Source of the DNA: Terriglobia bacterium
Lineage (GTDB): Bacteria; Acidobacteriota; Terriglobia; Terriglobales; Acidobacteriaceae
Assembly (NCBI GenBank): GCA_020072845.1
Contig: JAIQGF010000021.1
Coordinates: forward strand, 1 to 64,000
Direction of reading: 5' to 3'
DNA length: 64,000 bases
Shown: positions 18,261-25,491 of the stretch, one piece after another
Layout of the letters: every line of letters begins with the position of its first letter
How positions within the stretch are numbered: the first letter of the stretch is position 1
Program-made: the position numbers and the translations under genes
Notes under the pieces: model-generated
The model's input: the letters and a program-made list of their open reading frames with translations, nothing else
Databases searched by the model: none
What the model was told of the DNA's origin: nothing

Positions 18261-20414
18261 ATGCCAAAGCCGATCAAGTTTGTCGAGTTGGGGTTGGTGT
18301 ACGCCGCTAAGGCGGCCTGGGGGGTGTTTGAATTCGGCAACCGGTTCAACCAGAAGCCCTCCTTCACGCCCAAATGGTCCGACAAACCTCTTCTGAAATC
18401 CTACGAAAAGCAAAAACCGCCGCTCGGTTGGCCGCGCGCCACTGACTCGCTGTGCCCGAAGTGCGTTCCCGAGATCCGGCAGCAGATCCTCGACGGCAAG
18501 CTGCCGCACGAGATCCTGCTCAACGAGAAGGTCGGCGAAATCAGGGCGCAGATTATCGAGCGCGACGGCAAGATCCTGATGGTCAAGGATTGCCCCAAGC
18601 ACGGCCACTTCGAAGACGTCATGTCGATTGATTCGGCGATGTTCAAGCACATCGAAGCCGTCTTCCCGGGCCGCGACATGCGCTCCCACAACGACGAGAA
18701 GCTGCACCACCACGGCACCAGCACGGTGAAGTGGGGCCGCGGCGCCGTGCTCACCATTGACCTGACCAACCGCTGCAACATGATGTGCGATCCCTGCTTC
18801 ATGGACGCCAACCAGGTCGGATTCGTGCACGAGCTGACGTGGGAAGAGATCAAGACGCTGCTCGATAACGCCATTTCCATCAAGCCGAAGCGCCAGATGT
18901 CGGTGCAGTTCTCCGGCGGCGAGCCCACGCTCTCGCCCTATTTCCTCGACGCCGTGCGCTACGCGCGCAAGGTCGGCTATACCTCGGTGCAGGCGGCGAC
19001 CAATGGCATCGAGTTCGCCAAGAGCAAGGAATTCTGCAAGCAAGCGGCGGAAGCGGGCCTGCGCTACGCGTACTTGCAGTTCGACGGCATCGGCAATGCC
19101 GCCAACGCGCACCGCAAGGTCGGCAACCTGTTTGACGTGAAGTTGAAGGCGATCGAGAACCTGTTCGAAGCGGGCGTGGACATTGTGCCCGTGGTCACCA
19201 TCGTCAACGGCATCAACAACGAGCAGGTCGGGAACCTGGTGAAATTTGCGCTCGACAACCCGAAGGTGATCTCGTTCATCTCCTTCCAGCCCGTCTCGTT
19301 CACCGGACGCGACGAGGCTATTACCGACGATCGTCGCGCCGCGCAGCGCTACACCCTGTCGCACCTGGCGCACGACGTTAAAGACCGGACCGGCCTGGGC
19401 GAACCCGCGCGTGATTGGTTCCCGCTTTCCTTCATGGGCACCTTCTCCGACTGGGCTGACCTGGTACACGGGCCCACCGCCGAGTGGGGGCAACTGAGTT
19501 GTGGCTGCCATCCCAATTGCGGCGTCGGCATGGGCATCATGGTGGACAAGATCACCAAGGAAGCCGCGCCGATCACTGCATTCATCAATGCCGACCAGTT
19601 TGCCAAGGACGTCGCCAAGGTCACCGACGGCGGCCGCACCAAGTTCTGGTCATCGGTCGGAATGGCGCTGGCGCTGATGCGCAACTACAACCCGTTCACC
19701 ACCACCACCCACTTCACGATTTTCGAGTTCCTGAAGAAGCTCGACAAGAGCTTCGGCGTCAGCAAGAAGGCGCAGAGCGGCGGCTATGGCAAGGTTAGCG
19801 CCGACCGCACTCTGGAAGACGTGGAGAAGCGCCGCAACGACCGCTGGAACGTCCTGTTCGTCGCCGGCATGTGGTTCCAGGACCTCTATAACTACGACTT
19901 CCGGCGCACCGAGCAGTGCATCATCCCCTACGCCACGCAGGAAGGCGAGATCAGCTTCTGCGCCTACAACACCGGCGTGGGCTGGCGGAACATCATCGAG
20001 AAAATGCACATGACCGCCACCCTCACCAAGTGGTACGAGGAGCACGGGCGGCACGAAATCTTTGCCGGCGGCAAAAAGGTCTCCATCAGCGACGGCGTGC
20101 AACTGAAAGCGCTCAAGCTGAACAGCGACCTGATCACCGAAGAAGAGCAGCACGATCTCGAGCACCTGGGCATCGCCAAGAACGCGCGCGAGGAGAAAAC
20201 CCGCGCCCGCGACGCCAGGCAGAAGAACGATCCCGCCTACAACCAGAAGATGGAAAAGTTGTACCGGGAAGTCGTGCTCAAGGAAAAGCAGCCGGAAGGA
20301 TTCATCCCGCTCACCACTCTCGTGCCTGCAAACGGCAATGGCAACGGAAACGGCAATGGCAACGGGAACGGTCACGCCAAGCACGAAGAGCACGAGGCCG
20401 TGCTCGGCGACTGA
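18261..20414 (+). CDS. Tes-like radical SAM protein (candidate membrane-spanning lipid synthase), paralogue A
   Basis: A 717-aa radical SAM enzyme. The N-terminal module has SLCPKC and DCPKHGHF (a rubredoxin-like Cys set), then the core LTNRCNMMCDPC (C172, C176, C179), QFSGGEPTLS and AATNGIEF. Later Cys groups are LSCGCHPNCGVG and EQCIIPY...FCAYN. This order matches the family of archaeal tetraether synthase (Tes, MJ0619), which joins lipid tails by C-C coupling. Unlike the paralogue at 23857 it has no CPxxCGLC cluster before the core; a His-rich stretch stands there. It has an amphipathic N-terminal extension and a C-terminal (GN)n tail ending in H/E-rich residues. The ATG is preferred over a TTG 6 bases upstream. 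Function is inferred. Confidence 0.8.
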   Translation: MPKPIKFVELGLVYAAKAAWGVFEFGNRFNQKPSFTPKWSDKPLLKSYEKQKPPLGWPRATDSLCPKCVPEIRQQILDGKLPHEILLNEKVGEIRAQIIERDGKILMVKDCPKHGHFEDVMSIDSAMFKHIEAVFPGRDMRSHNDEKLHHHGTSTVKWGRGAVLTIDLTNRCNMMCDPCFMDANQVGFVHELTWEEIKTLLDNAISIKPKRQMSVQFSGGEPTLSPYFLDAVRYARKVGYTSVQAATNGIEFAKSKEFCKQAAEAGLRYAYLQFDGIGNAANAHRKVGNLFDVKLKAIENLFEAGVDIVPVVTIVNGINNEQVGNLVKFALDNPKVISFISFQPVSFTGRDEAITDDRRAAQRYTLSHLAHDVKDRTGLGEPARDWFPLSFMGTFSDWADLVHGPTAEWGQLSCGCHPNCGVGMGIMVDKITKEAAPITAFINADQFAKDVAKVTDGGRTKFWSSVGMALALMRNYNPFTTTTHFTIFEFLKKLDKSFGVSKKAQSGGYGKVSADRTLEDVEKRRNDRWNVLFVAGMWFQDLYNYDFRRTEQCIIPYATQEGEISFCAYNTGVGWRNIIEKMHMTATLTKWYEEHGRHEIFAGGKKVSISDGVQLKALKLNSDLITEEEQHDLEHLGIAKNAREEKTRARDARQKNDPAYNQKMEKLYREVVLKEKQPEGFIPLTTLVPANGNGNGNGNGNGNGHAKHEEHEAVLGD

Positions 20415-20436
20415 ATTCTGGGTGTCACCTCCGTAC

Positions 20437-20465
20437 AGGCCGCCGGAAATCCGGCGGCCTTTTTT
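20437..20465 (+). terminator. Rho-independent terminator after radical SAM paralogue A
   Basis: A perfect 10-bp stem AGGCCGCCGG/CCGGCGGCCT with an aaat loop is followed by TTTTT, 22 bases after the stop. Confidence 0.92.
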
Positions 20466-23658: not shown

Positions 23659-23856
23659 TTCATGCGTGACGAACCGGCATTCGCGGCCGGTTTCCGGGTG
23701 TGAACGGCCCTGCCGCCGCAGCGAACGGCGGCGGGCCGCATTGGAGCGGTTTTGGGGATTTGTCCCCGCCGGGGTTCTAATCAAGCAGTCAGCGGAAGTG
23801 TGCCGGACCGCCGGTCCGCCGATGCCGAGGACTAGCCAAGCGAGGAGGATCCTGCC

Positions 23857-25491
23857 TTGAGCACGCAAACTATTCCAACATCGCCGAAACCGGCCTTCGC
23901 CCCGGGCCGCCGCGCGCAATTCAAGGTCATCCAGCCGCAGACGACCTACACCGGTTCGCCGATCACACCCCTGCAAAAGGGCCTGCCTCGGACCACGCAA
24001 TCGCTGTGCCCGGAGTGCAGCGAGTTGATCGAGGCGATGTTGATCGAAGACGAGGGCAGGGTGTACATGGAGAAGTCCTGCGCCGCGCATGGCCGTTTCC
24101 GCGACCTCATTTCTCCCGACGCGAAACTCTATCTGAAAATGGAGAACTGGCACTTCGGCGACAATCGCGGCCTCAAGAACCCGGCCATTCGCAACGCCAC
24201 GCGCTGCCCCGAGCAGTGCGGATTGTGTTCCATGCACATCTCGCACACCGTGCTCGCCAACGTTGATCTCACCAACCGCTGCAACCTGACCTGTCCCGTT
24301 TGCTTCGCCAATGCCAACGTGCAGGGCTACCTCTACGAGCCCGACATCAACCACGTGCGCCGCATGCTGCAGGCGCTGCGCGACGAGCAGCCGGTGGCTG
24401 GACGCGTGGTGCAGTTTTCCGGCGGCGAGCCGACCATCCATCCGCAATTCTTTGAAATCTGCGCCATGGCGCGCGACATGGGCTTCTCCCACATTCAGGC
24501 GGCCACCAACGGCATCCTGCTCGCCGACCTCGAGTTTGCGCAGAAGGCGAAAGAGAACGGCCTGACCACGCTGTACCTGCAATTCGACGGCATCTGCGAC
24601 GACATCTACCGCCGCACCCGCGGCGCGTCGTTGATGGAAAAGAAGCTGGCGTGCATCGAGAACTGCCGCCAGGCCGGCATCAAGATCGTGTTCGTGCCCA
24701 CCATCGTGCGCGGCATCAACGATCACCAGATCGGCGACATCGTGCGCATGGCCATCAGTAACATCGATTGCGTCTCCGGCATCAGCTTTCAGCCGGTCGC
24801 CTTCACCGGGCGCATCAACCGCAACGAACTCGAAGCCAAGCGCTTCACCCTCGGCGACTGGGCGCATGCCATGGCCGATCAGACCGGAATCTTCGATCCG
24901 TACCAGGATTTCTTCCCGCTCTCCTGCGTTTCCCCGTTCTCGCGGCTGGCCTCGTCGATGCGCGGCGAAGAAGTTCCCACGCTCACCTGCAACCCGCATT
25001 GCTCGATGGGCACCTACCTTTTCATTGACGATAAGACCAAGACCGCGGTGCCCGTGACCCGCTTTATTGACGTCGGCGGCATGCTCCAGGACATGGACGA
25101 GTTTTCGCGCTCCACGCGCCGCTCCATCCTGCAGATCTTCACCAAGGTGAAAGCGTGGAGGTCGCTGCGGCGCCACTTCAAGCCGCAATTCGCGCCCCCG
25201 GGGCTGACCTTCGAGAAATTTCTCCAGACGCTGCAGGGCATGACCGACAAGAAACTCGGCCGTGACGGCATGGATGGCCGCTACACCTACCGCACCCTGC
25301 TGGTCGCGGGCATGCACTTCATGGACCTGTATAACTACGACGTCGAGCGCGTGAAGCGCTGCGTCATTCACTACGCCGCGCCCAACGGACTGATCTACCC
25401 GTTCTGCGCTTACAACTCCGGCCCCACCTTCCGCGAGAAGATCGAGAAGAAGTACTCAGTGCCGCTGGAAAAACCGCTTTGCAAGTTGTGA
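23857..25491 (+). CDS. Tes-like radical SAM protein (candidate membrane-spanning lipid synthase), paralogue B
   Basis: A 544-aa radical SAM enzyme of the archaeal tetraether-synthase family layout. It has SLCPEC and SCAAHGRF, then CPEQCGLC just before the core, the radical SAM motif LTNRCNLTCPVC (C142, C146, C149), QFSGGEPTIH, AATNGILL, LTCNPHCSMG, and a C-terminal RCVIHY...FCAYN. The full Cys set suggests one SAM-binding cluster, auxiliary clusters and a rubredoxin-like iron. Acidobacteria are known to make membrane-spanning iso-diabolic acid and branched tetraether lipids, so fatty-acid tail coupling is the favoured role; this is inference from family resemblance. The start is TTG at 23857 with AGGAGG 10 bases upstream. 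Length is close to archaeal Tes. Confidence 0.82.
   Translation: MSTQTIPTSPKPAFAPGRRAQFKVIQPQTTYTGSPITPLQKGLPRTTQSLCPECSELIEAMLIEDEGRVYMEKSCAAHGRFRDLISPDAKLYLKMENWHFGDNRGLKNPAIRNATRCPEQCGLCSMHISHTVLANVDLTNRCNLTCPVCFANANVQGYLYEPDINHVRRMLQALRDEQPVAGRVVQFSGGEPTIHPQFFEICAMARDMGFSHIQAATNGILLADLEFAQKAKENGLTTLYLQFDGICDDIYRRTRGASLMEKKLACIENCRQAGIKIVFVPTIVRGINDHQIGDIVRMAISNIDCVSGISFQPVAFTGRINRNELEAKRFTLGDWAHAMADQTGIFDPYQDFFPLSCVSPFSRLASSMRGEEVPTLTCNPHCSMGTYLFIDDKTKTAVPVTRFIDVGGMLQDMDEFSRSTRRSILQIFTKVKAWRSLRRHFKPQFAPPGLTFEKFLQTLQGMTDKKLGRDGMDGRYTYRTLLVAGMHFMDLYNYDVERVKRCVIHYAAPNGLIYPFCAYNSGPTFREKIEKKYSVPLEKPLCKL

Follow-up and report, generated by a model that had tools for sequence, protein, structure and literature searches.

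Two neighbouring Tes-like radical SAM genes in an acidobacterium: a candidate bacterial tetraether synthase accompanied by a Ger-like gene, and a diverged relative lacking the ligands of one iron–sulfur cluster

The stretch analysed here (the window) comprises bases 1–64,000 of contig 21 of a soil-type Terriglobia bacterium of the family Acidobacteriaceae (genome of 4.23 Mb in 27 contigs, given as 100% complete). It carries two genes for radical S-adenosylmethionine (SAM) proteins related to archaeal tetraether synthase (Tes, also GDGT-MAS), here called paralogues A and B, with a VPS10/BNR-repeat gene on the opposite strand between them (Table 1). A preliminary description of the locus had recognised two Tes-like genes and proposed a two-gene pathway to membrane-spanning lipids, which we retain as a candidate. 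Both open reading frames (ORFs) are intact: A begins at TTG 18255 or ATG 18261 (719 aa counted from the TTG), and B begins at a TTG preceded by AGGAGG and encodes 544 aa. Tes (MJ0619, PDB 7tol) is the best solved relative of each (217.6 bits for A, 442 bits for B), and genome-wide only A and B exceed 65 bits with the Tes model (NCBIfam NF045702, curated cut-off 450 bits). Homologues were collected from a phylum draw of 297 genomes and a host-family draw of 200 genomes, in both of which the A or B type of unlisted matches was assigned from score; G, C, L and f numbers are our labels for genomes, contigs, loci and families. Published work is cited from the portions of each text that were available.

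Table 1. Features of the window that bear on paralogues A and B
Feature	Position	Strand	Basis or remark
CRP/FNR-family regulator, candidate reader of the palindrome (inferred)	820..1680	+	CxxCx8C N-terminus, further Cys (ETIDPCQ), RE---R helix
Second, short CRP-like gene directly after the regulator	1807..2376	+	Pair recurs in relatives
Exact CRP-type palindrome before multihaem cytochrome gene	2503..2518		Motif scan
Multihaem cytochrome c, 10 CXXCH	2608..3627	+	Shares operator motif
Paralogue A, divergent Tes-fold radical SAM protein, long C-terminal tail	18261..20414	+	ORF, Tes match, ligand rows, model
VPS10/BNR-repeat protein gene between A and B	20565..23741	-	Neighbourhood; start inferred
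CRP-type palindrome TGTGA-N6-TCACA before B	23643..23658		One of 13 exact genome sites
Paralogue B, candidate bacterial Tes	23857..25491	+	NF045702 above cut-off, ligands of four metal sites
Histidine kinase	59075..60859	-	Shares operator motif
Exact CRP-type palindrome before histidine kinase gene	60933..60948		Motif scan

The metal sites of archaeal Tes (PDB 7TOL/7TOM) provide the reference for both proteins. Lloyd et al. (PMC9433317) describe a rubredoxin-type iron (C9, C12, C33, H36), an N-terminal cluster, [Fe4S4]N, held by C73, C77, C80 and a His, the radical SAM cluster, and a C-terminal cluster, [Fe4S4]C, with a labile Met439, as well as a conserved Tyr459. B scores 551.9 bits with the Tes model, is 41% identical to archaeal Tes over 506 alignment columns and retains the ligand sets of all four metal sites, its [Fe4S4]N segment reading CPEQCGLCSMH. 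In contrast, A scores 325.2 bits, below the cut-off, and is 31% identical to archaeal Tes and 35% to B. It resembles Tes in fold and in the ligands of three of the four sites, keeping the rubredoxin-type Cys and His, the radical SAM CX3CX2C motif, the three C-terminal Cys, Met439 and Tyr459, but it lacks all four [Fe4S4]N ligands (C73/C77/C80/H83) and carries a 22-residue insert in the rubredoxin-type domain. The archaeal Cys layout that had been ascribed to both proteins is thus complete in B and broken in A. B is most safely described as a putative bacterial Tes on the sequence tests made.

The loss in A extends to its homologues. Ligands were counted over 166 rows, excluding proteins below 430 aa and exact duplicates and including window A and B twice each with different starts; the structure alignment omits L097 and L119, which have frame breaks, and some other rows dropped to keep the alignment short. 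The [Fe4S4]N Cys are missing from all 56 A-type rows, which retain the rubredoxin-type and radical SAM ligands, C338/C455/C470, Met439 and Tyr459 wherever the row has a letter. In every A-type row that covers the N-cluster region (52/52, window A counted twice), position 77 is occupied by H and position 80 by S, within a conserved HG[ST]S that widens to HxHG[ST]S in 51/52, L153 having R in place of the first H. Of the other B/Tes rows, 98/108 have the three [Fe4S4]N Cys. Archaeal Tes-like proteins without these ligands also occur outside the A clade (L121, L124, L127–L130, L134, L138, L140 and L142). Loss of [Fe4S4]N as a general adaptation to air was considered and rejected, because the 10/108 B/Tes rows without the cluster are Methanomassiliicoccales/Thermoplasmata-type archaea, mostly of methanogen groups. 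Such archaea are anaerobes.

An AlphaFold model of A (mean predicted local distance difference test score 70, predicted template modelling score 0.74) matched 7TOM with a template modelling score of 0.82 by target length, other radical SAM enzymes following far behind; the input alignment consisted of B- and Tes-like rows, which biases this model towards the Tes fold, and the replaced [Fe4S4]N region (residues 140–161) is predicted with low confidence. In a quick IQ-TREE phylogeny of 87 rows (window A and B, MJ0619 and 84 rows hand-picked from 177 hit ORFs), with Shimodaira–Hasegawa-like approximate likelihood-ratio support only, the A-type proteins form a clade of 26 rows (support 100) on a branch of length 1.24. 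This clade adjoins acidobacterial f4/f51 rows, of which those inspected (L064, L066) still have the N cluster. The 22 acidobacterial B rows group together on one side of a branch (support 92), near the archaeal Tes clade (support 100); that clade also contains two acidobacterial rows, and rows from Planctomycetota, Nitrospirota and other bacteria lie close by. The preliminary description had put forward a phylogeny as a check; in this tree B lies near Tes, and A stands apart. An approximately unbiased (AU) test did not reject A and acidobacterial B as a single clade (p 0.163), and an origin of the pair by duplication inside Acidobacteria is neither shown nor rejected. The safest statement for A is that it is a diverged Tes relative, present in most of the host family, without the ligands of one cluster.

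The two types differ in how widely they occur. At the cut-offs used, A or B homologues were found in 166/297 genomes of the phylum draw, and the host-family members listed there carry A in 31/31 and B in 3/31. In the family draw, counted by hand, 168 genomes have a match and 32 have none. B (at least 64% identity) occurs in 23/200, and is the sole match in four of these, so that A-like matches occur in about 164/200; the second match of G448 may be a piece of its B. In 10/23 B-carrying family genomes A precedes B in the same orientation, at a distance of up to about 11 kb, and in two more a piece of A is cut by the contig end, so that the neighbouring arrangement from which a partnership had been proposed recurs in about half (12/23). 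In the other B-carrying genomes with A undetected or apart, the contig ends too early to show A (1), the stretch read contains no A (3) or A lies on another contig (3). Among the regions read, the VPS10 gene separates A from B in the genus of the host alone. In 21 regions of other genomes A has no conserved neighbour, save a minority RlpA/SPOR gene (6 or 7/21, depending on cut-off), and thus no operon partner of A was seen. Plasmid records gave five distant matches to A (haloarchaea, Persicobacter), none of them useful.

Named relatives of B-type loci were sought among the best 80 matches, which are not a census. The closest of these to B are Acidobacteriota, one labelled Acidobacteriaceae. 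Among named genomes, at least one 'Candidatus Solibacter' metagenome-assembled genome (MAG) and seven others, labelled Bryobacterales, Bryobacteraceae, Solibacteraceae or Terriglobia among the matches listed, have both A (71–78%) and B (66–71%). Additional copies were also observed: a second A-type copy, about 53–56% identical to A, stands alongside the usual one at L166 (G025:C2), L175 (G188:C661) and in other f21/f28 genomes; two B-type copies are listed on separate contigs in two acidobacterial genomes, G006 (C60, C4) and G048 (C115, C128); and a third Tes-like type, 39% identical to B and scoring about 370 bits, occurs at G484:C143 and G503:C76, each of these genomes having a further match (A in G503).

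A candidate partner of B, of the PlsA/Ger type to be expected where ether lipids are made, is encoded outside the window, on another contig. This 1020-aa protein contains two PF01869 stretches and DUF2229 (PF09989), and so has the two-activation-domain architecture described for validated Ger in PMC13274423. According to that paper, PlsA homologues carrying two PF01869 domains have been validated as Ger, and sequence alone cannot assign Ger versus PlsA for certain; many more distant relatives have open frames of ~1400 aa, as against 1020 aa in the host. We call the gene Ger-like. PF09989 is present in 69/297 genomes of the phylum draw, comprising 24/26 with B and 45/271 without (Fisher p 4e-15, treating genomes as independent and ignoring shared ancestry). 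The set of 26 includes G035, which has two partial matches and no A match, and genomes whose matches are of the f4/f51 or G264/G296 type (42–47%) were scored as lacking B. The two B genomes without PF09989 are G048 (79% complete) and G056. Within the host family in this draw, the domain occurs in 3/3 genomes with B and 4/28 without. Restricting the comparison to Ger-like proteins at least 50% identical to that of the host leaves 20 genomes (one match partial), 16/26 with B versus 4/271 without (p 2e-16, under the same treatment), the four being G005, G249, G245 and G242. Of 20 named acidobacterial genomes traced from B-type loci, 13 also have such a match, at least four of the 20 being already in the phylum draw, and the 'Candidatus Solibacter' MAG G312 carries A, B and the Ger-like gene. 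In G203 the B and Ger-like genes are adjacent, 291 bp apart on one strand; by the listed places, no other B genome has the two on a common contig. The presence of VPS10 genes close to B and also close to the Ger-like gene was considered as a shared feature and set aside as probably due to chance, because the genome contains 31 VPS10-family stretches.

B is also distinguished by its upstream region. The CRP-type palindrome that had been noticed there, TGTGATCCACCTCACA, lies 214 bp ahead of the start. Exact TGTGA-N6-TCACA sites number 13 in the host genome, 18 in G073 and 29 in G257, compared with 0, 0 and 1 for a reversed control. Of the 23 family B genes, 20 had loci available; an exact operator precedes B in 6/20 and a form with at most one mismatch in 10/20, versus 0.05% and 0.6% of shuffled upstream stretches. 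The operator is accordingly kept in part of the family, and among the four species of the host genus the half-sites are kept while the spacer varies. Before the Ger-like gene, the operator occurs in 4/4 family genomes of the phylum draw that have the gene, 54–79 bp away; G257 and G249 show the exact form, and the host and G073 deviate from it at one position. The preliminary description had linked the operator to oxygen-dependent lipid change, and the company that the motif keeps is partly consistent with this. Two further exact sites lie in the window (Table 1), one before a multihaem cytochrome gene, and ten lie outside it. Nine of the ten were scanned, of which seven have a Pfam-matched neighbour and two have no match. 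Among these neighbours are cytochrome bd oxidase subunit I (cydA) and a CCG Fe–S oxidoreductase; the remaining ones are an FTR1 iron permease, a histidine kinase, an S41 protease, a Sel1 protein and an M16 protease beside a periplasmic binding protein.

Candidate readers of this operator are available. Seven CRP-family genes of the host score over the cut-off, and visual inspection shows that the recognition helix of each contains RE---R, which we take to be the CRP-type DNA-reading motif; the window regulator (L217) reads IGTSRETVTR there. L216, L217 and L218 each contain CxxCx8C plus a further Cys, the window protein having one such further Cys. An FNR-type [4Fe-4S] sensor would be expected to have four Cys; the spacing differs from that of E. 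coli FNR. CxxCx8C recurs in most regulator relatives collected within the family, and we infer that such regulators may bind a cluster and sense oxygen. The full-length regulator gene and the short CRP-like gene that follows it, both encoding CxxCx8C, recur as a pair in relatives G330, G337, G343, G348, G352 and G202. Elsewhere in the window (14048–16293), a radical SAM/SPASM gene scores near AhbD (465.3 versus 500) and TIGR04053 (362.9 versus 395), below both cut-offs, and is followed by a YwiC-like gene.

Tail-to-tail coupling of acyl chains has been proposed for the bacterial membrane-spanning lipid synthase Mss, reportedly the work of Sahonero-Canavesi in 2022; A or B may be an Mss, the likeness being one of description. 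Models of Mss are reported to have a Tes-like architecture (PMC13274423). Acidobacterial Tes homologues have already been proposed to make membrane-spanning lipids (Zeng 2022; Halamka 2022; PMC8941075, PMC10087280), with printed identities to archaeal Tes of 42% in Koribacter, 40% in Solibacter and 32% in E. aggregans (PMC8941075). These values fit the B type (41 and 43% to two archaeal Tes-type proteins) and the A type (31 and 32%), although the available portions of these papers contain no split into two types, no lost cluster, and no link of B to Ger or to an operator. In addition, iso-diabolic acid is reported from acidobacterial subdivisions 1, 3, 4 and 6, and oxygen limitation raises branched glycerol dialkyl glycerol tetraethers (brGDGTs) in E. 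aggregans (PMC13274423). Among titles and abstract beginnings, which cover few subscription papers, no published description was found of the lost cluster, of B–Ger co-occurrence in Acidobacteria or of the operator. What the present analysis adds is the altered A clade, the link of B to Ger, and the shared operator.

From the sequences, ligands, distribution, linkage, co-occurrence and operator conservation observed, we infer each catalytic, lipid and oxygen step of the following explanation. B would be a tetraether synthase that joins the tail ends of two branched-chain glycerolipids by the Tes mechanism, in which two SAM-derived radicals are used and one lipid tail is parked on the C-terminal [Fe4S4] cluster. 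It would act with the Ger-like protein as ester-to-ether reductase, the expression of both being induced when oxygen is scarce, through a CRP/FNR-type regulator that recognises TGTGA-N6-TCACA, and the product would be tetraether lipids of the brGDGT type. A, with the Tes fold, the radical site and the ligands of the tail-parking cluster but no surface [Fe4S4]N, would make iso-diabolic acid where it is alone; because it occurs in most family genomes, usually as the sole such enzyme, it is in those genomes the best candidate for the iso-diabolic acid that most cultured Acidobacteria contain. We give a probability of roughly 0.5 to the reading of B with Ger as a low-oxygen tetraether module and of A as the family-wide coupling enzyme, probably for iso-diabolic acid. 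A bolder form, which we hold only tentatively, would make the A type a new Tes-fold branch that has lost one Fe–S cluster, has a conserved HxHG[ST]S at that place and constitutively produces the ester-linked iso-diabolic acid of aerobic Acidobacteria, and B with the Ger-like protein a CRP/FNR-switched low-oxygen cassette towards tetraethers.

Several observations weigh against this explanation. Koribacter, whose 42% homologue fits B, makes iso-diabolic acid tetraesters, so that B may make iso-diabolic acid too, and E. aggregans, whose one homologue (32%) fits A, makes some brGDGT, so that A may feed tetraethers (PMC8941075, PMC13274423); both organisms argue against a strict A/B split. Free iso-diabolic acid is missing from S. 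usitatus, for which two Tes homologues and tetraethers estimated at 10–47% are reported (PMC10087280), although A is present in Solibacter/Bryobacterales MAGs. Four of the 23 B-carrying family genomes have no A at the cut-off used, and the p values for co-occurrence take no account of ancestry. With regard to control, the operator is absent before B (at most one mismatch, 400 bp) in 10/20 family members and was not found (at most two mismatches, 450 bp) in 8/11 named B loci from other records. Before A it occurs in 0/30 loci of a first set, yet a one-mismatch form precedes A in 3/7 extra linked genomes, and the A/B contrast in control is therefore not absolute. Several other site-bearing genes have no evident oxygen tie, and the divergent VPS10 gene could be a target of the palindrome as well in the host and other members of its genus.

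Some of these points would fit an alternative, unlikely in our estimation, in which A and B couple the same lipids redundantly, some lineages having acquired B as a further copy without any division between ester and ether routes. The radical site, the C-terminal cluster ligands, Met439 and Tyr459 are common to both proteins, B occurs without A in some genomes, and the AU result leaves room for duplication. Redundancy would not, however, readily account for the tracking of B with the PlsA/Ger-type gene, given that in the phylum draw A occurs without B in 28/31 host-family genomes, only four of those 28 having PF09989, nor for an operator placed mostly before B rather than A, nor for A-type rows that have lost [Fe4S4]N and are set apart by a long branch. 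That same divergence, with the failed Tes cut-off and a conserved HG[ST]S where the metal site was, might instead mark a change of chemistry: A may not couple tails at all and may use the Tes scaffold for another radical lipid reaction, such as cyclisation, methylation or cross-linking, as the radical SAM enzymes GrsA and Gms do other chemistry on such lipids (PMC11868695). We consider this doubtful, because A keeps Tyr459, Met439 and the full set of three C-terminal Cys, its predicted fold matches Tes far ahead of other radical SAM enzymes, and the A type is the only Tes-like gene in most family genomes.

CRP-type sites can also be read by CRP with cyclic AMP (cAMP). It is improbable that the palindrome belongs to the VPS10 gene under cAMP-type control, with oxygen unrelated to B: the host site does lie close to the likely VPS10 start, which is probably nearer 23570, and the iron permease, protease and Sel1 genes share the motif, but B is preceded by an exact site in G257 and G393 and by a one-mismatch form in G358, G431, G337 and G353, the regions read of G257, G393, G431, G337 and G353 yielded no VPS10 homologue, and the operator also precedes the Ger-like gene, cydA and the multihaem cytochrome gene in a genome with several regulators bearing FNR-like Cys.

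The explanation in which B and the Ger-like protein lead to tetraethers at low oxygen, and A to iso-diabolic acid, bears on lipids of wider use. brGDGTs serve to reconstruct past temperature and pH, and it matters which bacterial enzymes make them and when. Within a single organism, the locus points to two candidate enzymes that can be studied apart, together with a partner reductase and a regulator site, such that the ester and ether routes and the effect of oxygen could be separated by removing genes one at a time. As the A clade suggests, one cluster may be dispensable to a Tes-fold enzyme. If A does provide a constitutive ester route and B with the Ger-like protein a low-oxygen cassette, these genes would supply a genetic basis for the effect of oxygen on brGDGT climate proxies.

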